A stretch of 64,000 bases of DNA from Planctomycetota bacterium (GTDB taxonomy: Bacteria; Planctomycetota; Phycisphaerae; Phycisphaerales; UBA5793): NCBI GenBank assembly GCA_963205185.1, contig CAUJHZ010000076.1:205157-269156 (forward strand), read 5' to 3'. Both the position numbers and the translations under genes were made by a program. Each line of letters begins with the position of its first letter. Within the stretch, counting starts at the first letter, position 1. Below, piece after piece: positions 32,027 to 45,781 of this stretch. Under the pieces are notes generated by a model, which ran no database searches, was not told the origin of the DNA, and saw only the letters and a list, made by a program, of their open reading frames with translations.

Positions 32027-33064
32027 ATGCAGATCTGCAATGTCAATCGCTTCGCGCTCGCCGCAACCGCCATCATGCTGGGCGCTGCGGGCAGCGCCAT
32101 GGGCCAGCTGAGCGAGTACTACCTGCACTCGGGCGACCAGGACACATTCACCGTCGTGCAGAACGGCACGATCCTGCGCCAGTGGAATCTGGCCGCGGGT
32201 ACCGATCGCTACCAGTACCCGATGGTCGTTCGAGACACGGTTCGCACCATGGGCGCGGATGTGGGCGACATCGGCGCCGACTACAGCCTTATGGGAGTCG
32301 ATCTCGGTCCGCGCTACACGCACCCCGAAGGCACATCGCGCTGCTGGGACGGCGCGACCGACGGCACGCACAACTATTCCATCGACACCGCCGGCGTGGT
32401 CTGGCAGTTCGACGGCGAATGGACCAATCCGCTGCGCCTCTTCACCGCCGGCGGCATCGGCGCATTGGCATACGACACCGAAAACGACACCCTCTGGGTG
32501 GGCACGTTCTCGGGCTCGAATCTCACGCAGTACGACCTGAGCGGGAACATCATCAGTTCATTCACCACCGGCCACACCAAGAACATGGCCGTCGCGATCG
32601 ACCCCGCCGACGGCACGCTGTGGATTCACGATCGAAATCGCCAGGGGACGCTCGAACAGTGGTCGCGCAGCGGCTCTTTGCTCAACACCGTCGTCGTGCC
32701 GGGCCTTGAAACGCAGAACGCGCTCGCGGGCGAATTCCAGTTCGGCGGCGGCGGTTATTCGCTCTCGCTCAGCGGCCAGTGCCCCGGCACCATCACCGTT
32801 ACCTGGAACAACGCGCCGCCGCAGACGCAACAGGGCATTGTCTTTGCACGCAACACCGGCTCGTTCGTGATTCCCAACGGCCCGTGCCAGGGAACGCAAC
32901 TGGGCCTGGGGACGAATCAACTGCAACTCGTCAACACCGTCAGCACGGGCAACGGCTCGGGCAGCGTCAACGGCCAGGCCGGAACGGGCGCCTGCGGCGG
33001 CTACCTGCAGTTGGTTGCAGTGGATAGTCCATGCCAGACGACCAACGTGGCTCAGTTGCCGTAA
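32027..33064 (+). CDS. Secreted protein with C-terminal Ig-like module
   Basis: About 345 residues. MQICNVNRFALAATAIMLGAAGSAMG is a signal peptide. The middle (GGIGALAYDTENDTLWVGTF, TKNMAVAIDPADGTLWIHDR) looks like a few blades of a beta-propeller. The last ~102 residues (YSLSLSGQCPGTITVTWNN to the end) match the C-terminal module of the FG-GAP protein at 38712-41336, with shared GxCPGTITxT, IPxGPCxGTxLGL and GAC positions. The ATG at 32027 has GAGGGAGAG upstream. A terminator follows. It sits on the plus strand between minus-strand recR and ybaB. Function unknown; probably surface-exposed. Confidence 0.78.
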   Translation: MQICNVNRFALAATAIMLGAAGSAMGQLSEYYLHSGDQDTFTVVQNGTILRQWNLAAGTDRYQYPMVVRDTVRTMGADVGDIGADYSLMGVDLGPRYTHPEGTSRCWDGATDGTHNYSIDTAGVVWQFDGEWTNPLRLFTAGGIGALAYDTENDTLWVGTFSGSNLTQYDLSGNIISSFTTGHTKNMAVAIDPADGTLWIHDRNRQGTLEQWSRSGSLLNTVVVPGLETQNALAGEFQFGGGGYSLSLSGQCPGTITVTWNNAPPQTQQGIVFARNTGSFVIPNGPCQGTQLGLGTNQLQLVNTVSTGNGSGSVNGQAGTGACGGYLQLVAVDSPCQTTNVAQLP

Positions 33065-33096
33065 GCGGAGGCGACATTGAATCGACGGATTCGCAC

Positions 33097-33127
33097 AGAC
33101 CCGCGGTCTCGCACCGCGGGTCTTTGT
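33097..33127 (+). terminator. Terminator after secreted-protein gene
   Basis: AGACCCGCGGT at 33097-33107 pairs with ACCGCGGGTCT at 33113-33123 around a CTCGC loop, followed by TTGTT. It starts 33 bases past the stop. Confidence 0.8.
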
Positions 33128-33152
33128 TCGCACTTCCCTATGTGTTATGAAC

Positions 33153-33536
33153 TCACTCCCCCAGCAGGCCGCCGAGATCGGCGCCCGGGTCGATGGGCAG
33201 GCCGAGTTCGCGCGCGCGGCGGGACATTTCATCCGCCGCCATGCGCTGCGCCTTCTCCATCGCCGCGTTGATGGCGCCGACGATGAGGTCTTCAGCCATC
33301 TGCCGGTCGGCATCGCTGCCTGCGTCGATGAGGGCCGCGAACATCGCCGGGTCGATTTCGAGCGACGCCACGCGCATGGCGCCGGTGACGGTCGCCTTGA
33401 CCGCGCCGCCGCCCGTTTCGGCCGAGGCCTTCATCGTCTTGAGTTTGTCCTGCACTTGCTTCATCTGCTCGCGCAACTGGCCGGCGTTGCGCAGCATGCT
33501 CGACAACTGCCCGAGATTCTTGAACTGGTCGAACAC
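33153..33536 (-). CDS. ybaB: YbaB/EbfC nucleoid-associated protein
   Basis: 127 residues from a GTG with GGAGAA upstream. FDQFKNLGQLSSMLRNAGQLREQMKQVQDKLKTM is the helical part and TVTGAMRVASLEIDPAMF the beta strand of the YbaB fold. It is a small dimeric DNA-binding protein. The usual order dnaX-ybaB is kept (stop of dnaX at 33570). The expected recR does not follow directly, because a plus-strand gene lies between. Confidence 0.93.
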   Translation of the reverse strand: MFDQFKNLGQLSSMLRNAGQLREQMKQVQDKLKTMKASAETGGGAVKATVTGAMRVASLEIDPAMFAALIDAGSDADRQMAEDLIVGAINAAMEKAQRMAADEMSRRARELGLPIDPGADLGGLLGE

Positions 33537-33569
33537 GACATTCTCCCGCAGCGCATGGCGCTGAATGAG

Positions 33570-35249
33570 TCATTTGGATCTGCGCGGCACCGGCTTCACA
33601 TCGACGATGCGGGCGTCGAGCAGTTCCATTGCCTTGCGCACGATCGGAATCTGCGCCGCCTCGGCGAATTCCGACGATGACGGCAAGGCAGTGCCGGTCG
33701 TCTTGCCATTCGCCGGCGCCGCGGCGCCGGCGATGAGTTCGAGGCGCACGGGCCGGCCCAGCGCCGCTGCAAAAATCTTCTCGACGGCGCCGAGGCACGT
33801 CCGCGCGTACGCGAGCAGCGATGCATCCTCCAGCACGAGGCTGATTGTCGGCCCATCCAGGCGCTGGTCCCAACTCAGCGCATCGACCACCGGGCCGAGG
33901 CGCGCGTTCCGATGCGCTTCTTCGACCACGTGCCGCCACACCTGCTCAGGATCGACATCCACGCGAGCCGCGGCCGGCTGCGATAATTCCGGTTCCGCGG
34001 ACGCCGGCGCGGCGGCGCTCTTCGCAGCCGTCGCAGCCGCCAGTTCGCTCAGTTTCGGCGCTGGTTCAGCGCGTTGTGGACTTTTTTTTTGAGCGGCGCC
34101 CGCGCTGCCAGCGCCGCTGAGACGCCCGTCACCAGCCGGAGCGCCCTTGAGCAGCGCCGCGGCATCGGCGAACTTCTCGCTCAGCGCCAGCCGAATCACG
34201 GCTGCATCGAGCAGGGCCCGGCCCGTCACGCTCGATTTGATCGACCGCTGCACATTTTCGAGTAGCGCGATCATGTACACGAGGCTCGGCGCGTCGAACC
34301 GCCCCGCCTGCGCTGCGATTTCCTGCCGTTCGTCGTCGGCCAGTTCGAGCAGTTCGCTCTCCACGCCGCATGCGCAGGCAAGCATGAGCAGCCGCAGCCG
34401 GTCGATGACAATCTCGATGAACTGATCGGGCGACACGCCGCGATTGAGCATCTCGTTCATCTGCTGCAGCGCCGCAGCGGGTTGCCCGTCGGCCACGGCC
34501 TCGACGAACTGGTGCACCAGCGCCTGGTCCGGCAGGCCCAGCGTCTCGGCGAGCATCTCGACGGTGATGGTCTTCTCGCCCTCGGAGAGCAGTCGATCGA
34601 GCAGGCTCAGCGCATCGCGCATCGAGCCGTGCCCCAGGCGCGCCACCTGCAGCACCAGCCGCTCATCGGCCTTGACCTTCTCCCGCTTGAGTACATCGCG
34701 CAGGTGTTCGGCGATTCGCTTGGTCGGGATCATCCGGAAGTCGAACCGCTGGCAGCGCGACTGGATCGTCGCCGGCACCTTGTGCGGCTCGGTGGTGCAC
34801 AGGATGAACTTCACATGCGACGGCGGCTCCTCCATGGTCTTGAGCAGCGCGTTAAACGCCTCGCGCGTGAGCATGTGCACTTCGTCGATGATGTAGATTT
34901 TGTAAGGGCAGCGGTTGGGCCGGTAGATGCTGTTGGCGATGAGATCGCGGGCCTCATCCACGCCGCGGTTCGAAGCGCCGTCAATCTCGATGACGTCGAT
35001 GTCGCCGCCCTGCATGATCGCTTTGCCGATCGCCTCGGCGTCGGTGAGTTCGGGCGTGACGTTGAGCGCCTTGGCGAAGATGCGGGCCATCGAAGTCTTG
35101 CCCACCCCGCGCGTGCCGGTGAAGAGATAGGCGTGGGCGACGCGGTCGGACTCGATCGCCCGCTTGAGCGTGCGCGCGATCGCCTCCTGCCCGATGACTT
35201 CATCAAAGTCCTGGGATCGATAACGGCGAGCGAGAACGGTGTAAGCCAT
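33570..35249 (-). CDS. dnaX: DNA polymerase III subunit tau/gamma with likely programmed frameshift
   Basis: 559 residues (tau form). AAA+ motifs are clear: GTRGVGKTSMARIFAKALN (Walker A), YKIYIIDEVHMLTREAFNAL (Walker B), CTTEPHKVPATIQSRCQRFDF (sensor 1 and arginine finger region). After ~360 residues comes a Pro/Ala-rich linker and a C-terminal tau domain. Between Walker A and DVIEIDGASNRGVDEARDL the four zinc-binding cysteines of most DnaX proteins are missing; the segment reads NVTPELTDAEAIGKAIMQGG. Codons 387-389 (CAA AAA AAA) contain an A9 run with a nearby -1 stop, so a gamma form of about 394 residues is likely. It is the clamp-loader ATPase of the replisome. Confidence 0.95.
   Translation of the reverse strand: MAYTVLARRYRSQDFDEVIGQEAIARTLKRAIESDRVAHAYLFTGTRGVGKTSMARIFAKALNVTPELTDAEAIGKAIMQGGDIDVIEIDGASNRGVDEARDLIANSIYRPNRCPYKIYIIDEVHMLTREAFNALLKTMEEPPSHVKFILCTTEPHKVPATIQSRCQRFDFRMIPTKRIAEHLRDVLKREKVKADERLVLQVARLGHGSMRDALSLLDRLLSEGEKTITVEMLAETLGLPDQALVHQFVEAVADGQPAAALQQMNEMLNRGVSPDQFIEIVIDRLRLLMLACACGVESELLELADDERQEIAAQAGRFDAPSLVYMIALLENVQRSIKSSVTGRALLDAAVIRLALSEKFADAAALLKGAPAGDGRLSGAGSAGAAQKKSPQRAEPAPKLSELAAATAAKSAAAPASAEPELSQPAAARVDVDPEQVWRHVVEEAHRNARLGPVVDALSWDQRLDGPTISLVLEDASLLAYARTCLGAVEKIFAAALGRPVRLELIAGAAAPANGKTTGTALPSSSEFAEAAQIPIVRKAMELLDARIVDVKPVPRRSK
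34058..34090 (-). promoter_or_regulatory. Programmed frameshift or slippage site in dnaX
   Basis: On the coding strand nine A residues (34090-34082) are followed by G. A -1 shift reads AAG TCC ACA ACG CGC TGA, ending after five codons at 34066. Nine bases after the A run, GCGCTG (34072-34067) can pair with CAGCGC (34063-34058) around AAC; the -1 stop lies in this hairpin. The A9 run matches the Thermus dnaX slippage signal, and E. coli uses AAAAAAG plus a stem. Output would be tau (559) and gamma (~394). Confidence 0.8.
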
Positions 35250-35377
35250 GGAGCCTTATTGAAGGGGCCAAACCCCAAGGGGGCAAAAGCAGACGCGAAG
35301 ATCGCCCACCAGGCTCGATTCGCCGCCAGGATTCCCCACCTGCATCGGGGCCGGCCGGGACGGGAAACGCTTCGCAC

Positions 35378-35815
35378 TCACTTCACCATCTCCTGCCGCG
35401 CTTCCCGGCCGGCCTTCCACAGGATGACGCCAAACGGCAACCACCAGATCACATCATTGAAGAGGATGAGCCAGCCGAACGTCCACGGGAACTCGCCCTT
35501 GATCGCGTAGACGACGAACCCGATCGGGCCGAACACTTTGCCCAGCAATCCCACGAAGACGAGCGGCCAGTGGCGAAGCGGGTTGGTCGAGGCGACGAGA
35601 TAGCCCACGCCGTAGACGCCGATGACCATGCCCAGGCACTGCCAGACCTGCGGCCAGATCGGCCGCGCCAGGCCCATCATGTCAAACGCGGTATTGGGAG
35701 ACAGCAGCGCGCTCAGCCCCCAGGCGATGTTGTAGACGCCGGCCGCGGTCAGCGCCCAGCGCATCCACCCAGCCGGCCGTGATGGCTCAACGTCTTCATG
35801 CACGGCCATGAGCAT
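35378..35815 (-). CDS. Small membrane protein, four predicted helices
   Basis: About 145 residues starting MLMAVHEDVEPSRPAGWMRW; an in-frame ATG six bases later is equally possible. Hydrophobic segments: ALTAAGVYNIAWGLSALL, QCLGMVIGVYGVGYLVA, PLVFVGLLGKVFGPIGFVVY, FGWLILFNDVIWWLPFGVILW. It has no conserved catalytic residues I can name. It is on the minus strand upstream of dnaX, with a 128-base gap containing a GGGG-tttgg-CCCC dyad. Function unknown. Confidence 0.7.
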   Translation of the reverse strand: MLMAVHEDVEPSRPAGWMRWALTAAGVYNIAWGLSALLSPNTAFDMMGLARPIWPQVWQCLGMVIGVYGVGYLVASTNPLRHWPLVFVGLLGKVFGPIGFVVYAIKGEFPWTFGWLILFNDVIWWLPFGVILWKAGREARQEMVK

Positions 35816-35942
35816 ATCGCCGGTGCTCCGCGCGGACAGTCGCCGGGCATCACACGAAAGCAACCGCCGCCGGCGCTGCGTGTGGCGAGCGAGCGACGGC
35901 GGCGGTCTGGAAGGAGGAACGTGCTGAGGTCGCGCGGAGGTT

Positions 35943-38600
35943 CTACTGGGTGATCTGGGATTCGACAGGGCGGCTCTTGACGCTCCACGCGCCGCCGGGG
36001 CCGCGTCGAATCACGGCTTGCGTGAACACTGGCGTGCCGAGCGGCGCGCCGCCGGGGATGTTCAGACGAAGTGACGCCATGCCGGAAGCGTCCGCCGGAG
36101 CCGAGTCGATGATCGTCAGCGGGTTGCGCAGATCGAGACACAGGCCTCCGAGCTGCGGCGGGCAGGCGCCCTGCCCGAGACCGCGCGTGCTGTAGAGGAA
36201 ATACACCTGCTCGCCCGGCACCGCGCCTTGCGCGTGCAGCGTCGCCGTCTGCCCGCGGCGGAGCGGCGTCTGCGAGAGGATGATGTCAAAGTCAGAAGGC
36301 GCGATGCCCTTGAGGAGGATCACACCCGGGTACCACCAGCGGCCGCTGTCGACCTGGCAGAGCACGGCCAGGTCGATGGTGCCGTCACCGTCGAAATCGC
36401 CCGTGATCATGTCGTAGGCATCCTGGCCGACCCCCAGGCGCATGAGCCGGTCGAAAGCGCCGTCGCCGACTCCCTTCCAATAGGAAACGTCTTGCGCGCT
36501 GAAGTTCGCGGTGAAGGCGTCGATCTCGCCGTCACCTTCGGCATCGCCGAAGGAGAGGCTGCTGGTGTGATCGGCATAGCCGTACGAACCGTGGTACGTA
36601 TCGAGAATGTGAAAATCGCCGTTGCCCCGGTTGCGCCGCACGCCCAGGCCCGTCTCGTCGAGGTTGTAGATGGTGCCGAAGTCGATCGAGGCGTTTCGGT
36701 CGAAGTCAGCCGCGCCAAAGGCGCGCACGCCCCGCCCGGCCGGAACTTCGAGCGACGTCTGGAAACGGCCGTCGCCCAGTCCGAAGGCCACCGTGGCGCT
36801 GCCTTGCAGGCCTGAGTCCGTAAGCAGGTCGGGGAAGCCGTCGCCGTTGAAATCGCCCATGCCGATCTTGCGAACGAAGTCGGTGGTGGTGTTGTGCACC
36901 GGCGCATTGAACGAACCGGTGCCGCGATTGATCGCCACGTTGACTTCAAAGAAGCCGCTGAACACGACATCGAGGGCGCCGTCGGCGTTGACATCCCACA
37001 GATTCATGTCGCCCTCGACGTACGCGGCCGTGATGAACTGCATCGCGCCGAATGAGCCGTTCCCGCCGTTGAGCCGGGTGCGGATAGCGCCGGTGCTGTC
37101 GCGGAAGACCAGATCGAGTCGGCCGTCGCCGCTGATGTCGGCAAGGCGCACGACGGTGGGATAGGTCGAAGCGCTGTAGGTCTCGATCGCGGCGAACGTG
37201 CCGTCGCCGTTGTTGCGGCGGACCGTAATGCCGTGCTGCTCGGCAAAATCGGCCCTGAATCCGGCGACAAGATCGAGATCACCGTCTCCGTCGATGTCGC
37301 CCGCCAGCAGGTTTGTGGGGAATGCCGGCGAGAGACCCGGGCTGGTCATGTCGATGACGGGCGGCTGGATGAATGTGCCGTCGCCCGGGTTTTGATAGAC
37401 GCACGCGCCCATCGACTCGGAGCAGACGACGATGACCTCCAGGTCGGTGTCGCCGTCGAGATCGGCCGCCTGGATCGAGCGCGGGTTGCGCCCGCAGCGG
37501 AAGCGCTGGGGAGCGTCAAAGCCGCCGCTGCCGTTGCCCGCCACGAGGTACCACTGGCTGCTGCTGGTGGCGACGAGAGCGTCAAGCCAGCCGTCTCCGG
37601 TCACGTCCGCCGTGCGAATGCTGCTCGGCCCGCGCGTGTACCAGTTCAGTTCGATGACTTGAGGCGCGGGGAAGTTCCCGCCTCCGCTGTTGCGCCAGAA
37701 TCCAAAGGCGCCTTCGTAGAAGCCGCCGCTGTCCGCGTGTCCGTAGAACACGTCCTGGTCGCCGTCGCGATCGAAATCCACGACGTGGATAGTGGGATCT
37801 TCCGGCAGCGAACCCTGGTCGATGCCGGTAAACGTGCCCGCAGAAGTGAACAGCCCACTGCCGCCGTTGCGCATGAATGTCCAGCGATTGGTTTCATGGC
37901 CGACCGCCAGATCGATGTCGGTGTCGCCGTCAAGGTCACCCACGGTGATGCGGTTCGTGCCGGCGGTGAGCGTGTGCACTGCAGGCGAGCGGAATCCGCC
38001 GATGCCGTCGCTAAGGATCACCGCGATGGAGTTGCCGTACTCGATGTATCGATCGTGCGCGACGGCAAAGTCGAGCCAGCCGTCGCCGTTGAAATCGGCG
38101 GTGGTCAGCCCGTTGGGTCCGGTTGAGCCAGCGCCCAGAAGTCGCGTGCGGGTGAACTGCCCGGACCCGTTGTTGGACCAGATCGAGATGACATTGCCTT
38201 CCCAGAAACGGCCGGTCTCGGCGACTGCAACGTCAATGTCGCCGTCGCGATCGAAGTCGCCCACCTCGACATCATTGCTTTCCAGAGTGAGCGCATAGGT
38301 GACAAACGGCTCATAGCCGCCGTCGCCGTCTCCCAGGAGGATCGACAGGTTCCCCGTGCCGCTGAAACTCACGACGGCCAGATCGGGAACAAGATCGGCG
38401 TTGAAATCCGCCACGCGCGACGCGGCGGGAAAGAGACCTTCCGGGTACACCGCGGTTTCGTACGAAATCCACGGGACGTCAAAGGGTACGGGGCGCGTCT
38501 GCGACGACGCGGAGCCGGCGACAGCAAGAAGGATTGCGGTTGCGATCGCGCCGCTCGATGCGGCACGGCGGTTGGATGAGTCATTCAGTCGGGCATTCAT
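35943..38600 (-). CDS. Secreted FG-GAP/VCBS-repeat protein
   Basis: About 885 residues from the ATG with GAGAAAAG upstream. A signal peptide (AIATAILLAVAGSASSQ) leads to about a dozen FG-GAP repeats with Asp-rich calcium-binding turns, for example DFNGDGWLDFAV, DLDGDTDIDLAV and DIDGDGDLDLVAG. They probably form one or two beta-propellers. The last ~125 residues (TPLRRGQTATLHAQGAVPGEQ, then ADASGMASLRLNIPGGAPLG and the Lys-Ser-rich end) match the C-terminal module of the neighbouring secreted proteins. A 10-bp dyad (35863-35872 with 35897-35906) lies about 40 bases past the stop and may terminate transcription. Ligand unknown. Confidence 0.82.
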   Translation of the reverse strand: MNARLNDSSNRRAASSGAIATAILLAVAGSASSQTRPVPFDVPWISYETAVYPEGLFPAASRVADFNADLVPDLAVVSFSGTGNLSILLGDGDGGYEPFVTYALTLESNDVEVGDFDRDGDIDVAVAETGRFWEGNVISIWSNNGSGQFTRTRLLGAGSTGPNGLTTADFNGDGWLDFAVAHDRYIEYGNSIAVILSDGIGGFRSPAVHTLTAGTNRITVGDLDGDTDIDLAVGHETNRWTFMRNGGSGLFTSAGTFTGIDQGSLPEDPTIHVVDFDRDGDQDVFYGHADSGGFYEGAFGFWRNSGGGNFPAPQVIELNWYTRGPSSIRTADVTGDGWLDALVATSSSQWYLVAGNGSGGFDAPQRFRCGRNPRSIQAADLDGDTDLEVIVVCSESMGACVYQNPGDGTFIQPPVIDMTSPGLSPAFPTNLLAGDIDGDGDLDLVAGFRADFAEQHGITVRRNNGDGTFAAIETYSASTYPTVVRLADISGDGRLDLVFRDSTGAIRTRLNGGNGSFGAMQFITAAYVEGDMNLWDVNADGALDVVFSGFFEVNVAINRGTGSFNAPVHNTTTDFVRKIGMGDFNGDGFPDLLTDSGLQGSATVAFGLGDGRFQTSLEVPAGRGVRAFGAADFDRNASIDFGTIYNLDETGLGVRRNRGNGDFHILDTYHGSYGYADHTSSLSFGDAEGDGEIDAFTANFSAQDVSYWKGVGDGAFDRLMRLGVGQDAYDMITGDFDGDGTIDLAVLCQVDSGRWWYPGVILLKGIAPSDFDIILSQTPLRRGQTATLHAQGAVPGEQVYFLYSTRGLGQGACPPQLGGLCLDLRNPLTIIDSAPADASGMASLRLNIPGGAPLGTPVFTQAVIRRGPGGAWSVKSRPVESQITQ

Positions 38601-38711
38601 GGCTTTTCTCCATCGGTGCGCTTGAGGGGACAAGCGCGGTGCTGGTCGTTGGAACAGTCGTGCTCGCGAAATCCTGCAGCGCGGCGACAAGCGCCGCGCT
38701 GCCGCTTTGGA

Positions 38712-41336
38712 TCAGAGTCCTACGACATTGGAAGTGGCGCAGTTCGACACGTCGAGCGCCTGCAGGTACACGCGGCCGCACGCGCCCGAGGGCGCGTTGC
38801 CGGTGATGGCCGCACGGCCGTTGGCGTTGGCGCGAGCCGTGCGAAGCAGTGTCGCGGTGCCATTGAGGCCCAGGCGCGTTCCAGCACACGGGCCGGTGGG
38901 GATGGCAACCGAGCCGGTTCCGAAGGCGTAGATGAACGCCACGTTGCCGCCCGGCGCGGCGCCGTCGGCGGTCAGCGTGATCGTGCCGGGGCAAAGACCT
39001 TCGACTGCGAGCGTGAAGCCGCCGCCCGAGGAGCCGTAACCCTCGAGGATCGTGACCATGTCCGTGAAGCCGCCGGGCGGCAGGCTGACGATGGTCGCAA
39101 TGTCGATCACGTCATCGCCGGTGAAGTCGCCAAATACGGACGAGTGCGCTGAGTATCCGGCGCCGTAGCGCTGGGCGGTCTGGAGCGTGCCATCGCCGTT
39201 GCCGAGGTAGATGGAAACGTCGCCAGGCGCGTTGGCCGTGAGCACGAGATCCATATTGTCGTCGCCGTCGATATCGGCAGCCCCGCAGTCGGATGCGATG
39301 CGATAGGCTCCCTCGCGGCCCGTCGGGCCCCGATAGACGACGGGGAATCCGAAATCGCCGTCGCCATAGCCGAGCATGAGGGTCACTTCAGTGGTTCCGA
39401 ACGACGGCTGTGGCCGCAGCGTGCAAAGGTCGAGGTGTCCGTCGCCATTGAAGTCTGCGACGTCGAACCTGGAGGCCTGCTCGCCCTGCGAGATCACGGG
39501 GTCGAAGGTGAAGTCTCCGCGGCCGGGCCAGGTGGTGATGCCCAGTGCGTTGCTCGACAGCAGATCAGGATGCGTGTCGTGATTGAGGTCAATGGCCTTG
39601 ATGCCGTTGGGAATCGACGACTGGATCTCCTGCATGAAGGTGAACGAAGTTCCGCTGCCGTTGCCGCGGAAGACGTAAATCCCCGAAGTTGGACCCGGAT
39701 CGGTCAGGACCACGTCGCGGATGGTGTCGTGATTGAGATCGACCGCATCCAGTTCACCGGCCTGGGAAGCGCCCACAGGCGTGATCACGCCCGGCAGGAA
39801 GGTGCCGTCGCCTCGATTGAGCGATACCGCGAAGTTGTACGGCGGAGAGTTGCGGTCGGGCCCGAACACCAGGTCGGGGTACTCGTCGTTGTTCATGTCG
39901 CGCAGCAGCACTGAGCCGGGGTTCATCGGCGGCTGGTACGTGCTCGCCGGCGCGAAGGTGCCATCCCCGTTGTTGCGCAGGATGTACGCCTGCGAGTCGA
40001 CGCTGACGATGTCCAGATCGCCGTCGCGGTCGATGTCCGCCTCGTCAATGTTGTGCGTGATCGTTCCGATGCGGTACTGGGGCAGCGTCGCCAGCACGCC
40101 GCCGCCGGTGTTCTCGTGCACAGTCACCACGCTCGAGTCGTTGGCGACGGTAACGACCTCCGTATCGCCGTCACCATCCGCGTCGAAGCCGACGGCATCG
40201 CTGGTCCACTTGGCCGCGCGATAGGTCACCGAAGGCATGAAGTTGCCCGTGCGATCGTTGAGGAGGAGATCAAATCCGTCGTACGAGCGCCCCGAGGGGT
40301 TGGCGGCGATGAGATCGGGCCAGCCGTCGTCGTTGACGTCAGCGGCGTTGAGCGACACGACCGTCCACGACCAGTCGCCCAGCGGATAGGTAGTGAAGGG
40401 GCCAAACACGCCCTGGCCGTTGTTGCGTCGAACGGTCACATAGCCGCGGTTGGGAGTTCCGTTGGTTGCCGTCGTTGCGATCAGATCAGGATCGCCATCC
40501 CGATCGACATCAACGAGCGCAACGCGCGAATTGGCGTACTGGGTGTCGTTGGCGTGGAGATACAGGACGGGAGCGCCGAAATTGCCCGCGCCGTCGTTGA
40601 ACAGGATCGCATTTCCGGAGGCGTTCTGCCGTCCGACGAGCAGGTCGAGATCATCATCGCCGTCGATATCGGCGGCGGCGACGCGCTGCACGTTGGCGCC
40701 GACGGTTGTGGTGCGCGGCGCCGCGAAGGCCACCTGGTTGCCTGACTGGCCGTTGTGCACCATGAGCGACACGGTCGAGCCGTTGCCGTAGAAGTCACCA
40801 TCGGCGGTCACGATGTCGGAAAAGCCGTCGCCGGTGAAGTCGGCGACCACCAGGCCGATGGGGCCGGGCCCGCTGGTGACCTGCCGGTAGGGGTTCGCGA
40901 ACGTTCCATCAGCATTGCCGCGCCACCAGTACACCTTGCGGGCCTGGCTGAAGGTGGTGGGCACGCTCGCAATCGCGTCCACATGACCGTCGCCATCGAT
41001 GTCGCGCAGAACGAGATCCGCGAGGTCGTCGCCGTAGGGCACGTCGTTTCGCGAGGTCATCTTGAAATCCCCGCCGCCCTCGTTGAGCATGACCACGAGG
41101 CCGGGCTGGCCGTAGTACTCGTTGGCCACCACCACGTCCAGGTCGGTGTCGCCGTCGAGGTCGGCATAATCGAGCGCGATTGGAGCAAAGTAGGGAAACG
41201 CTCCGCTCACGTAGGCGCGCCACGCCGAATCGACGAGATCGCCGCCTCCCTGGGGCTGGGCGAGTGCCGCGGTCCCCAAAAGCGCCGCGGCGAGACCGAC
41301 CATTCGAGCGCTGCTGCTGAAACGGGTTCGATGCAC
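38712..41336 (-). CDS. Secreted FG-GAP/VCBS-repeat protein with C-terminal module
   Basis: About 874 residues from a GTG with AAGGAG upstream. The signal peptide MVGLAAALLGTAALAQ follows a short N-region. FG-GAP repeats include DLDGDTDLDVVV, DIDGDGHVDAIAS, DVDRDGDPDLIAT and DFNGDGHLDLCT. The last 101 residues (FTLAVEGLCPGTITLTADGA onward, 38715-39017) are clearly homologous to the end of the 32027-33064 protein. The gene runs parallel to 35943-38600 and precedes it by 111 bases, so the two may form an operon. Extracellular binding or adhesion is likely, but the ligand is unknown. Confidence 0.82.
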   Translation of the reverse strand: MHRTRFSSSARMVGLAAALLGTAALAQPQGGGDLVDSAWRAYVSGAFPYFAPIALDYADLDGDTDLDVVVANEYYGQPGLVVMLNEGGGDFKMTSRNDVPYGDDLADLVLRDIDGDGHVDAIASVPTTFSQARKVYWWRGNADGTFANPYRQVTSGPGPIGLVVADFTGDGFSDIVTADGDFYGNGSTVSLMVHNGQSGNQVAFAAPRTTTVGANVQRVAAADIDGDDDLDLLVGRQNASGNAILFNDGAGNFGAPVLYLHANDTQYANSRVALVDVDRDGDPDLIATTATNGTPNRGYVTVRRNNGQGVFGPFTTYPLGDWSWTVVSLNAADVNDDGWPDLIAANPSGRSYDGFDLLLNDRTGNFMPSVTYRAAKWTSDAVGFDADGDGDTEVVTVANDSSVVTVHENTGGGVLATLPQYRIGTITHNIDEADIDRDGDLDIVSVDSQAYILRNNGDGTFAPASTYQPPMNPGSVLLRDMNNDEYPDLVFGPDRNSPPYNFAVSLNRGDGTFLPGVITPVGASQAGELDAVDLNHDTIRDVVLTDPGPTSGIYVFRGNGSGTSFTFMQEIQSSIPNGIKAIDLNHDTHPDLLSSNALGITTWPGRGDFTFDPVISQGEQASRFDVADFNGDGHLDLCTLRPQPSFGTTEVTLMLGYGDGDFGFPVVYRGPTGREGAYRIASDCGAADIDGDDNMDLVLTANAPGDVSIYLGNGDGTLQTAQRYGAGYSAHSSVFGDFTGDDVIDIATIVSLPPGGFTDMVTILEGYGSSGGGFTLAVEGLCPGTITLTADGAAPGGNVAFIYAFGTGSVAIPTGPCAGTRLGLNGTATLLRTARANANGRAAITGNAPSGACGRVYLQALDVSNCATSNVVGL

Positions 41337-41812
41337 GGTGTGCTCCTTCCGAAGTTGGCCAGCGGTGAGCACCGCTCGCCTCGGTGATCAAAATTTCTGC
41401 CATCTCGCTGAAGTGCGGCGCCGCTTGCGAGCCACCAGGCGAGTTCACAGGTCTGTCCCCTGCGCAATGCAATGGGGGTGCCAGTGACGCGCGGGCGTCG
41501 GGCATTCGCTGAAACGGGCACAAATGGGGGAAATGGCCCCGTGCCACGACTCGATGCCAGGTGCCGGCGTGATCGGCCATCGCAACGGCCAGAGCAATGG
41601 GAATCTGGGTAACGACGCCGCTGCTCGCGGGGGGCGCGGCGAGCGCTTCGGCTCGATCAGGCGCGATTTCCGCAGGAAGTTTGGATAAATTCGCTTCCGT
41701 CGGCGGTTGTTCTGAGGTATTCTATCGGCGTCTCAGTCGCCCGCGCTCGCGGTGCGGCTGGAGCCTGTGTTACCGTGCCCAAGTCACCTGGTCTTTGGAA
41801 AGCGAGAAGAAG
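41337..41812. other. Divergent intergenic region, no gene seen
   Basis: The 476 bases separate a minus-strand FG-GAP gene from the plus-strand subtilase. An upstream in-frame extension of the subtilase exists but lacks a ribosome-binding site. A TTCCGT/TATTCT pair at 41695-41723 (17-base spacer) is a weak promoter candidate. I found no RNA gene or repeat. Confidence 0.4.
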
Positions 41813-43585
41813 ATGAAACGATTGGTGTGTGTCGGCGCTGCGGCCGCCGTCTTGTCGGCCCCCGCGGTGGCAGGCGAAATCGACGGCGATCTGCGAAAGA
41901 TCCTGCTCGAATCGCCCGACAACGAAGTGATCTCGACGCTGGTCTACCTCTCCGACCAGGTCAACATCGCGCAAATGAACCACGACTTCAATCGCCAGAA
42001 CCTCCCTCTGAGCGAGCGACATCGTCTGGTCGTGACCACGCTCCATGAGAAGGCGGCCAACACGCAGGGAGCGCTGCTCGCTCACCTGACCGCCCTCAAG
42101 GATGCCGGCCGCATCGCTGACTTCCAGTCCTACTGGATTTCAAACGTCATTCGCGTTGACGCCACGCGAGGCGAGATCGTCCGTCTCGCCGGCCGCGGCG
42201 ATGTGCTCCGCGTCTACTTCAACTACCCCATCGAACTGGTCGCACCCGTCGGCGAGCCGATTGCAGTCGAGCAGGGCGGCAACGGCGGCCTGGACAATCC
42301 CGAGCCCGGTCTTGTCGCGATTCGCGCCCCTGAAGTGTGGTCCGAGTTCGGCGTCATGGGCAACGGCGTGCTCACCTCAACGCTCGACACCGGCGTGGAT
42401 GGCAACCATCCGGCGCTGGCCAGCCGCTGGGCGGGCGTGGCCGACTCGCGCTACGCCGGCCATCCTGAGTGGGCGTGGTTCGATCCGGTGACCAACACCA
42501 ACTTCCCCACCGCGTTCGGCAGCCACGGCACCCACACCATGGGCACCGTGTGCGGCGGCGCACCGGGAGATGAAGTCGGCGTTGCGCCGGGCGCGACGTG
42601 GATCCACGCGGCCGTCATCGATCGCGTGAGCATTCAGCGCACCGTCTCGGATTCGCTGCTTGCGTTCGAGTGGCTGATCGATCCGGATGGCGATCCGAAC
42701 ACCAACTGGGATGTCCCGGCCGTGTGCTCCAACTCCTGGGGCCTCGTGACGGGCCACGGCTACCAGCCCTGCGATCAGACCTTCTGGACTCACCTGGACG
42801 CCTGCGAAGCCGCCGGCACGCTCATCACTTTCTCGGCCGGAAACGAAGGATCTTCGGGTCTGCGCCGCCCGGCGGACCGGGCGACCGATGACTACCGCAC
42901 CTTCGCGGTGGCGGCGGTCGATGGCAACCAGCAGGGCTGGCCGATCGCGTCGTTCTCCTCGCGCGGCCCGACGAACTGCACGCCCAATGGTCAGCCGGCC
43001 ATCAAGCCGGACATCTCCGCTCCGGGGGTCAACGTGCGATCCGCTCTGCCGGGCAACTCCTACGGCAACCTGAGCGGCACGTCGATGGCTTCGCCGCACA
43101 TCAACGGCGTGGTCTGCCTCATGCGTGAAGTCAATCCGGATCTGCCCGTCGATGACATCAAGCAGATCATCTTCGACACCGCCGTCGATCTCGGCACCCA
43201 GGGCGAAGACAACAGCTACGGCTGGGGCATGGTTGATGCGTACGAAGCCGTCGTCGCAGCCATGACCGGCGACATCCCGATGCGACTGGTGACGTCGCGG
43301 TTTGTCTCCGGCGTGAACGGCGACGCGGAGGTCTTCCGCGCCACGCCCGGTTCGACCGTCGCATTCGTGTACAGCGTCGCGGGGCCCGGCAGCACCTATG
43401 TGCCGCAACTGGATGTCACGCTCGATCTCGCCCAGCCGCGCCAGGCCGGCGTTCGCACCGCCGATCAGGACGGCTACGCCCTGCTCCGCAAGCGCATTCC
43501 GCCCAACACCGTGGGCGTGCGCGTGTACATGCAGGCGTGCGAGTTCCAGCGCAAGTCGAACGTCACCGATCAGGTGATTCAGTAA
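41813..43585 (+). CDS. Secreted subtilisin-like serine protease (S8), one C-terminal module
   Basis: About 590 residues. Signal peptide MKRLVCVGAAAAVLSAPAVAG is followed by a ~100-residue propeptide-like region. Catalytic Asp (TLDTGVDGNH), His (GSHGTHTMGTV) and Ser (SGTSMASPH) are all present, with oxyanion Asn in FSAGNEG. The last 101 residues (490-590) form an Ig-like module: DAEVFRATPGSTVAFVYS, TYVPQLDVTLDL, TADQDGYALL and VYMQACEFQ. The ATG at 41813 has GAGAAGAAG upstream. A closely related gene follows in tandem. Likely extracellular nutrient or surface protease; substrate unknown. Confidence 0.9.
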   Translation: MKRLVCVGAAAAVLSAPAVAGEIDGDLRKILLESPDNEVISTLVYLSDQVNIAQMNHDFNRQNLPLSERHRLVVTTLHEKAANTQGALLAHLTALKDAGRIADFQSYWISNVIRVDATRGEIVRLAGRGDVLRVYFNYPIELVAPVGEPIAVEQGGNGGLDNPEPGLVAIRAPEVWSEFGVMGNGVLTSTLDTGVDGNHPALASRWAGVADSRYAGHPEWAWFDPVTNTNFPTAFGSHGTHTMGTVCGGAPGDEVGVAPGATWIHAAVIDRVSIQRTVSDSLLAFEWLIDPDGDPNTNWDVPAVCSNSWGLVTGHGYQPCDQTFWTHLDACEAAGTLITFSAGNEGSSGLRRPADRATDDYRTFAVAAVDGNQQGWPIASFSSRGPTNCTPNGQPAIKPDISAPGVNVRSALPGNSYGNLSGTSMASPHINGVVCLMREVNPDLPVDDIKQIIFDTAVDLGTQGEDNSYGWGMVDAYEAVVAAMTGDIPMRLVTSRFVSGVNGDAEVFRATPGSTVAFVYSVAGPGSTYVPQLDVTLDLAQPRQAGVRTADQDGYALLRKRIPPNTVGVRVYMQACEFQRKSNVTDQVIQ

Positions 43586-43618
43586 AACCGCGCTGCGGCG
43601 CACTTCGTCCCCAAGTCG

Positions 43619-43644
43619 CACCGCGGGCCAGTCGGCCCGCGGTG
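43619..43644 (+). terminator. GC-rich hairpin between the two subtilase genes
   Basis: CACCGCGGGCC pairs with GGCCCGCGGTG around AGTC. No T run follows directly, so it may be an attenuator or mRNA-stability element rather than a full terminator. Confidence 0.5.
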
Positions 43645-43699
43645 TGGCTTGAGGGCATCTAACTCTTTTTGCCCTTCGTGGCTTGAAAGGCGGGGAACA

Positions 43700-45781
43700 A
43701 TGAAGCGACTCCTCCTCACGGGAACTGCGGCAGCGATCCTGGCGACGCCGGTCATCGCCGGTGAAATCGATCCTGACCTGCGGCGGATCATCCTCAAGAC
43801 GTCCGACAACGAGGTCCTCTCGACGCTGGTCTTCCTCAACGACCAGGTGAACATCGCGCAGATGAACGCCGCGATGAACCAGGCGAAAGTCAACCTGCGC
43901 GAGCGGCACCGGCTCGTGGTTACTTCGCTGCAGGAAAAGGCCGGCCTGACGCAAGGCGATCTCATCGCGCATCTCACCGATCTGAAGGACGCCGGACGCA
44001 TTTCCGACTTCCACCCTTACTGGCTGTCCAACGCCATCCGCGTGGACGCCACGCGCGGCGAGATTGTCCAACTGGCCGGCCGTCAGGATGTGCTTCGCGT
44101 CTACTTCAACTATCCGATCGAGACCGTCGCGCCGATGGGCGCTCCGGTAGCCGTCGAGCAGGGCGGCAACGGCGGGCTCGACAATCCCGAGCCCGGTCTT
44201 GTCGCCATTCGCGCGCCCGAAGTCTGGACTGAATTCGGCGTCATGGGCAACGGCGTGCTCACCTCAACGCTCGACACCGGCGTGGATGGCAATCACCCCG
44301 CCCTCGCCAGCCGCTGGGCAGGCGTGGCCGACTCGCGCTACGCCGGCCACCCCGAGTGGGCGTGGTTCGATCCGGTGACCAACACGACCTTCCCGACCGC
44401 CTTCGGCAGCCACGGCACCCACACCATGGGCACCGTTTGCGGCGGCGCACCGGGCGATGAAATCGGCGTCGCTCCGGGCGCCACCTGGATCCATGCGGCC
44501 GTCATTGATCGCGTCAGCATTCAGCGCACCGTCGCCGATGCGCTGCTCGCCTTTGAATGGCTCGTTGATCCGGATGGGGACCCGAACACGAATTGGGACG
44601 TCCCCGCGGTTTGCTCCAACTCGTGGCGTCTCGTCACGGGTCACGGCTATCCGCCGTGCGATGAAACTTTCTGGACGCATCTGGACGCGTGCGAGGCCGC
44701 CGGCACGCTCATCACCTTCTCCGCCGGCAACGAGGGCTTCTCGGGCCTCGGCCGCCCGTCCGATCGCGCGACCGACGAATACCGCACCTTCTCCGTCGCC
44801 GCGGTGGACGCGAACCAGCAGGGTTGGCCGATTGCGTCGTTCTCCTCGCGCGGCCCGACGAACTGCACGCCCAATGGCCAACCGGCGATTAAGCCGGACA
44901 TCTCCGGCCCGGGCGTCAACGTCCGATCCGCTCTGCCGGGCAACTCCTACGGCAACCTGAGCGGCACGTCGATGGCTTCGCCGCACATCAACGGCGTGGT
45001 CTGCCTCATGCGCGAAGTCAATCCCGATCTCTCCGTGGACGACATCAAGCAGATCATGTATGACACCGCCTTCGATCTGGGCGATCCGGGCGAAGACAAC
45101 AACTACGGCTACGGAATGGTGGATGCATACGAAGCAGTCGTCGCGGCCATCAGCGGTGACATTCCCATGCGGCTTCGTGCGGCTTCGTGGACGGCCGGCG
45201 TCGAGACGGATCTCGAAGTCTTCCGCGCCACGCCCGGCAGCAACGTCGCGTTTATCTACAGCATTCAGGGGACGGGCAGCACCTACGTGCCCCAACTGGA
45301 TGTCACCGTCGATCTCGCCTCGCCGCGTCTGGCCGGTATCGAGACGGCCGACCAGGACGGCTACGCACTGCACCACATGCTCGTTCCCTTCGGCTCCGAA
45401 GGCACGCACGTCTGGATGCAGGCAGCCGAGTTTCAGCGCAAGTCCAATGTCGTTGATCAGCCGGTCGAATACCGTCTGACGCTCGAAGTGTCGCGCTGGC
45501 TGGCCGGCGTCCGCGGCGACGCGGAAGTGTTCGGCGCCACGCCCGGCGCCACCGTCGCGTTCCTCGCGAGCTTTGACGGCACGGGCAGCACCTTCATCCC
45601 GCAGTTCAACGTCACCGTGGACCTGCTCAACCCCGTGACGGCGGGCACCCGCGTCGCCGATCAGAACGGCTACGCGCTGCTGCGCCAGCTGATCCCGACC
45701 GAACTGCAGGGGCGGCACGTCTGGATGCAGGCCGTCGAGCAGCGGAGCAAGTCCAACCTCGTCGAGCAGGACATCGAGTAG
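43700..45781 (+). CDS. Secreted subtilisin-like serine protease (S8), two C-terminal modules
   Basis: About 693 residues, paralog of 41813-43585 over its first ~590 residues. Signal peptide MKRLLLTGTAAAILATPVIAG. Catalytic Asp, His and Ser motifs are the same (TLDTGVDGNH, GSHGTHTMGTV, SGTSMASPH). It has two C-terminal modules in tandem (490-591 and 592-693) with repeated ATPGxxVAF, GTGST[YF][VI]PQ[LF][DN]VTVDL, ADQxGYAL and [HV]WMQA positions. The start ATG at 43700 follows GGGGAA. A terminator follows the gene. The two genes probably arose by duplication, then one gained or lost a module. Confidence 0.9.
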   Translation: MKRLLLTGTAAAILATPVIAGEIDPDLRRIILKTSDNEVLSTLVFLNDQVNIAQMNAAMNQAKVNLRERHRLVVTSLQEKAGLTQGDLIAHLTDLKDAGRISDFHPYWLSNAIRVDATRGEIVQLAGRQDVLRVYFNYPIETVAPMGAPVAVEQGGNGGLDNPEPGLVAIRAPEVWTEFGVMGNGVLTSTLDTGVDGNHPALASRWAGVADSRYAGHPEWAWFDPVTNTTFPTAFGSHGTHTMGTVCGGAPGDEIGVAPGATWIHAAVIDRVSIQRTVADALLAFEWLVDPDGDPNTNWDVPAVCSNSWRLVTGHGYPPCDETFWTHLDACEAAGTLITFSAGNEGFSGLGRPSDRATDEYRTFSVAAVDANQQGWPIASFSSRGPTNCTPNGQPAIKPDISGPGVNVRSALPGNSYGNLSGTSMASPHINGVVCLMREVNPDLSVDDIKQIMYDTAFDLGDPGEDNNYGYGMVDAYEAVVAAISGDIPMRLRAASWTAGVETDLEVFRATPGSNVAFIYSIQGTGSTYVPQLDVTVDLASPRLAGIETADQDGYALHHMLVPFGSEGTHVWMQAAEFQRKSNVVDQPVEYRLTLEVSRWLAGVRGDAEVFGATPGATVAFLASFDGTGSTFIPQFNVTVDLLNPVTAGTRVADQNGYALLRQLIPTELQGRHVWMQAVEQRSKSNLVEQDIE

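Follow-up and report, generated by a model that had tools for sequence, protein, structure and literature searches.

A probable surface sorting or anchoring module at the C-termini of exported proteins in a lineage of Phycisphaerales planctomycetes

The manner in which planctomycetes transport proteins to the outer surface and retain them there is still poorly known. For the Phycisphaerae, a dockerin-based mode of display, referred to as the "planctosome," has been proposed on genomic grounds (PMC6461901). The GC-type dockerin of the Phycisphaerales (NF041540), for which no paper was found among the open literature, is a high-copy C-terminal tag on secreted proteins that consists of a pair of Ca-binding, EF-hand-like repeats that together span ~55-70 residues. 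In type IX secretion, the C-terminal domains (CTDs) of proteins such as RgpB, PorZ, and PorU, also known as Por secretion tails, are Ig-like β-sandwiches of ~70-110 residues that lie at the extreme C-terminus and occur in many copies on unrelated Sec-exported cargo (PMC11285876). The PEP-CTERM/exosortase signal, on the other hand, is built from a ~24-residue motif, a transmembrane helix, and a basic tail. It was inferred to function in sorting on the basis of four features, namely a C-terminal homology region, an N-terminal signal peptide, diverse partners, and a sporadic distribution (PMC1569441).

The module described here shares some properties with each of these systems. Like the GC-type dockerin, it is a high-copy C-terminal tag, and in related subtilases of neighboring families the dockerin occupies its slot. 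Whereas the dockerin is a pair of EF-hand-like repeats, however, the module is a ~100-residue β-sandwich, often with two predicted disulfides, and the two have no sequence in common. The six modules under study matched neither NF041540 nor Dockerin_1, and those that were modeled are all-β. All four of the PEP-CTERM features are displayed by the module, but its alignment contains no PEP motif, transmembrane helix, or basic tail. With the FnIII and Ig-like domains it shares the overall fold class, yet it is terminal rather than internal or arrayed, and it corresponds to no Pfam member.

The window, by which is meant the entire 64,000-nucleotide stretch of DNA that was analyzed, encodes five secreted proteins that together carry six copies of the module, all C-terminal. 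Their positions are listed in Table 1.

Table 1. Module-bearing proteins of the window and their module copies.
Feature	Position	Strand	Description
Secreted protein	32027..33064	+	Signal peptide MQICNVNRFALAATAIMLGAAGSAMGQ, propeller-like passenger, C-terminal module
Module A	32744..33061	+	Four-Cys subtype; reaches the stop codon; AlphaFold model, pLDDT 93.8
FG-GAP protein	35943..38600	-	13 FG-GAP_3 stretches; signal peptide; start codon inferred
Module C	35946..36296	-	C-terminus of the FG-GAP protein 35943..38600
Second FG-GAP protein	38712..41372	-	Signal peptide; limits of the open reading frame, exact start uncertain
Module B	38715..39035	-	Four-Cys subtype; joins unit A to the other units
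Subtilase	41813..43585	+	Peptidase_S8 (E 1e-42); signal peptide; start codon inferred
Module D	43268..43582	+	Cys-poor subtype; AlphaFold model, pLDDT 97.2
Second subtilase	43700..45781	+	Peptidase_S8 (E 1.5e-38); start codon inferred
Module E1	45155..45469	+	First of tandem pair
Module E2	45470..45778	+	Second of tandem pair; reaches the stop codon

A first-pass annotation of this DNA had proposed that these five proteins end in a common unit and that the second subtilase contains two copies of it. Both proposals are borne out. Local alignments for all pairs among units B, C, D, E1, and E2 gave z values of 8.6-70.7, above every one of 500 shuffles, and the passengers of the two subtilases are ~85% identical. 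Unit A is connected to the remainder through the FG-GAP unit B (z = 26, ~45% identity, 500 shuffles); its pairwise scores against C, D, E1, and E2 did not exceed those of 500 shuffles. Family profiles nevertheless group all six window units with more than 150 further copies. Ten columns are invariant across the six, including two prolines, two leucines, several glycines, and one glutamine. The motifs quoted in the annotation are a good description of the subtilase units and a partial one of the FG-GAP units, but they do not apply to unit A, where "PPQTQQGIVFA" and "GNGSGSV" are found instead.

That the annotation could not name a family is readily understood, for neither Pfam nor NCBIfam holds a model that convincingly covers any of the six units, let alone all of them, down to E ≤ 10. 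The Pfam matches in the window proteins correspond to the passengers only (FG-GAP repeats and Peptidase_S8). A profile built from the six units retrieved from the PDB sequences only chance nanobody and phosphatase matches (E ≥ 0.067), and no paper describing the module as a named planctomycete C-terminal sorting domain was found in the open literature.

The span of the window understates what is a genome-wide phenomenon. In the 4.55 Mb genome of this uncultured Phycisphaerales planctomycete, the six-unit profile gave at least 150 matches, all of those listed having E ≤ 1.8e-11, and a five-unit profile added 32 places for a total of at least 182. An HMM search iterated until stable over the 394 kb surrounding the first 150 places yielded 162 module domains in 161 open frames. 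In 160 of the 162 domains, no more than 20 residues separate the end of the module from the stop codon. Of the two exceptions, one is E1, with E2 directly behind it. The other, designated L060 (G000:C25:130496-133543, - strand), consists of a signal peptide, a module, and ~108 Cys-rich residues, and is alone among the copies examined in having a genuine extension beyond the module.

The copies are well diverged from one another, with a median pairwise identity of 28%. A signal-peptide-like N-terminus is present in 139 of 154 carriers (~90%) as compared to 12 of 99 internal controls (12%), as judged by a heuristic for which several of the misses resemble signal peptides by eye. Clustering by similarity divides the passengers into 62 groups, and the Pfam types represented among them include FG-GAP, S8, M14, kelch, SBBP, BNR, β-helix, and DUF3466, among others. 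Because glycine is enriched in the residues that directly precede the module, reaching 33% against a background of 12%, a flexible linker at this position is suggested.

One pair of tandem paralogs is of special relevance to the relationship between module and passenger. The passengers of the proteins encoded at L053:302-2818 and L053:3064-5649 (both + strand) are 65% identical over 734 residues, whereas their modules are only 21% identical and belong to different subtypes. This constitutes an apparent module swap, and since the two proteins share passengers while differing in module, the module would seem to behave as an exchangeable tag. In addition, ten short proteins contain hardly anything beyond a signal peptide and a module. 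They are located at L107, L047, L046, L069, L076, L089, and L094, sometimes in tandem, with three in L107. These mini-proteins are possibly adaptors or structural subunits, and given that they contain so little else, the module may also act in its own right.

Models of two divergent units, A and D, were calculated with AlphaFold2 using alignments of window sequences and their relatives. Both are high-confidence, all-β sandwiches, and each of the six strands in A occupies the alignment columns of a strand in D, which has nine. The closest folds in the PDB are FnIII domains, nanobodies, Nir2, and similar Ig-type sandwiches, together with carbohydrate-binding β-sandwiches (CBM56 and β-GRP) among the weak matches. 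A search of a viral fold library returned only generic phage Ig/FnIII-like domains. The suggestion in the annotation that the unit is Ig-like thus agrees with the predicted models, in the loose sense of an FnIII/Ig-like sandwich. With E values no better than 0.006 and TM scores of about 0.4-0.6, it is the fold class alone that is known.

The family alignment also contains four cysteines that covary as two pairs, C7-C79 (phi 0.98) and C43-C92 (phi 0.89). All four are present in 84 copies, only C43 and C92 in 18, and none in 50. On the basis of this covariation, we infer two disulfides, C7-C79 and C43-C92, that would be formed in an oxidizing compartment. An intramolecular ester or isopeptide cross-link was also considered in light of weak matches to Cpe0147 repeats and a near-invariant glutamine. 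Such chemistry needs acidic/His residues, and as the family alignment does not contain these as conserved positions, the possibility was rejected as a working hypothesis.

Within the order, the module is largely confined to one family. In the window's family (f1), every one of the six genomes contains at least 150 modules, and none was found in 15 of 15 genomes from other families. In a wider sample of the order, 3 of 195 genomes outside the family showed a single, mostly weak match. Across the phylum, the module was observed in 65 of 392 genomes, and many members of a family outside the order, f62, are among those with the highest counts listed; most of the genomes compared are probably metagenome assemblies, and the module counts are lower bounds. 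Named module-bearing genomes include Phycisphaerales bacterium UBA5793, planctomycete PLA5, PLA1, Planctomycetota PNC21, and PNC 80. The terminal placement seen in the window's genome is maintained in 80 of 80 copies from named relatives. In 20 of 20 copies from distant planctomycetes, 2-7 residues lie between the module and the stop codon. Many planctomycete module copies are found on the WYBR01 contigs (L135, L145, and others), whose title, "Vicinamibacteraceae bacterium PLA1," is probably a misnomer.

The distribution of other C-terminal tags is reciprocal to that of the module. GC-type dockerins number 0, 0, 0, 2, 0, and 0 in the genomes of the window's family as opposed to 126 to at least 150 per genome in sister family f2 and 16-71 in f3; there is one in f4 and none in f5 and f6. 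PEP-CTERM tails, in turn, number 46-129 in five of the six f5/f6 genomes and 0-15 in the window's family. By family, then, the dominant tag is the GC-type dockerin in f2 and f3, PEP-CTERM in f5 and f6, and the module in f1. Given these reciprocal counts, one order is seen, at the level of sequence matches, to contain three C-terminal tags that are nearly mutually exclusive. Neither family f4 nor genome G017 of the order has any of the three in quantity, and thus these tags do not cover every lineage. Outside the order, none of the 18 module-bearing genomes gave more than a single weak dockerin match. Genome G127 contains 74 dockerins and one weak module match.

A terminal domain that is found on more than 180 exported proteins, and that lies in the slot used by relatives for anchoring tags, is therefore likely to be a sorting or attachment tag. 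The module is most probably a new, lineage-restricted C-terminal domain for surface sorting or anchoring. Such a role, which had been put forward in the first-pass annotation, is supported by several lines of sequence-based evidence: the strict C-terminal placement, the signal peptides, the diversity of passengers, the swapping of modules, and the reciprocal replacement of the dockerin and PEP-CTERM in sister families. Carriers would be exported through Sec by virtue of their N-terminal signal peptides, and the module would fold outside the cytoplasm as a small β-sandwich, stabilized in about half of the copies by the two putative disulfides. A putative common surface apparatus would recognize it and deliver or tether the passengers (propellers, proteases, and β-helices) at the outer surface or matrix. 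In this capacity the module would fill the role of the GC-type dockerin and PEP-CTERM tags in the sister families. That the carriers reside at the surface, that a receptor or translocon exists, and what its nature would be are points that we infer. More speculatively, the module might be the recognition signal of an undescribed Planctomycetota outer-membrane sorting or secretion system with dedicated machinery, analogous rather than homologous to type IX. It is put forward with the same reserve that, in no fewer than two separate lineages (the window's family and f62), the module replaces dockerin/PEP-CTERM display across the proteome.

The main rival explanation is that of a self-associating or matrix-binding adhesive domain, which would serve as a structural building block and glue exported proteins into an extracellular layer or to a polysaccharide without a dedicated sorting machine. 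The ten free-standing mini-proteins, the tandem copy in the second subtilase, and the prevalence of propellers and β-helices among the passengers are all in keeping with adhesion, as is the loose resemblance to CBM56 and β-GRP, weak as those matches are. Binding domains, however, usually occur in internal, N-terminal, or arrayed positions as well, whereas the module copies are nearly all single and terminal, and we regard an adhesive role as rather unlikely. Alternatively, the module could be a passive folding cap or an accessory Ig-like domain that has multiplied through duplication and plays no part in localization. Many carriers are indeed locally duplicated, with 42 of 150 places lying less than 4 kb from the next, and related passengers tend towards related modules (Spearman 0.51). 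Yet a passive cap fits poorly with 62 passenger clusters, with module exchange between near-identical passengers, with mini-proteins devoid of a passenger, and with the mutual exclusion of module and dockerin on a genome-wide scale, and it is considered highly improbable.

There is similarly very little likelihood that the module is a diverged type IX CTD served by a diverged type IX secretion system (T9SS) in the genome. The T9SS CTDs are likewise Ig-like β-sandwiches; they measure ~67-108 residues and form the very end of varied proteins exported through Sec (PMC4804311, PMC11285876). They belong to another phylum, however, and searches of NCBIfam, including its models of T9SS tails (TIGR04183 and its relatives), gave no match for any of the six modules at E ≤ 10. 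Por_Secre_tail (TIGR04183) is absent in six of six genomes, with a Bacteroides control positive, and no solved CTD appears in the top 50 PDB matches for either module model. Sequence models and fold neighbors alike speak against membership, and a T9SS origin was rejected as the main reading. SprA_N (PF14349) gave no candidate in any of the six genomes, and the control genome was likewise devoid of a match.

In this lineage of uncultured planctomycetes, ~180 or more exported proteins in each genome bear the module, which is not named by any family model. Should it prove to be a sorting tag, its carriers would immediately reveal the surface proteome of these organisms, and its occurrence would provide a strong phylogenetic profile with which to find the machinery. 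The presence of different abundant C-terminal tags in related families, moreover, means that the wholesale replacement of one tag by another can be tested as an event in evolution.

The subtilases provide a close view of such a pair of tags. Among the relatives of the window subtilase, L185 belongs to sister family f3, shows 54-57% identity in its protease part, and terminates in two dockerin-like repeats, whereas L202 and L206, both from the window's family, are subtilases ending in the module. L185 and L206 share a ~280-residue domain between the protease and the tag (34% identity, E 8e-55), and the homology extends no further than the residue that directly precedes the tag, which is the dockerin pair in L185 and the module in L206. 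With the NCBIfam model for the GC-type dockerin (NF041540), L189 scores 50.8 bits, which is above the cut-off, and L191 and L185 score 27.9 and 15.6 bits, respectively, which are below it. The subtilase relative at L186/L206 (G005:C2:898725-900124) is split across two reading frames, probably as the result of a frameshift or an assembly error.
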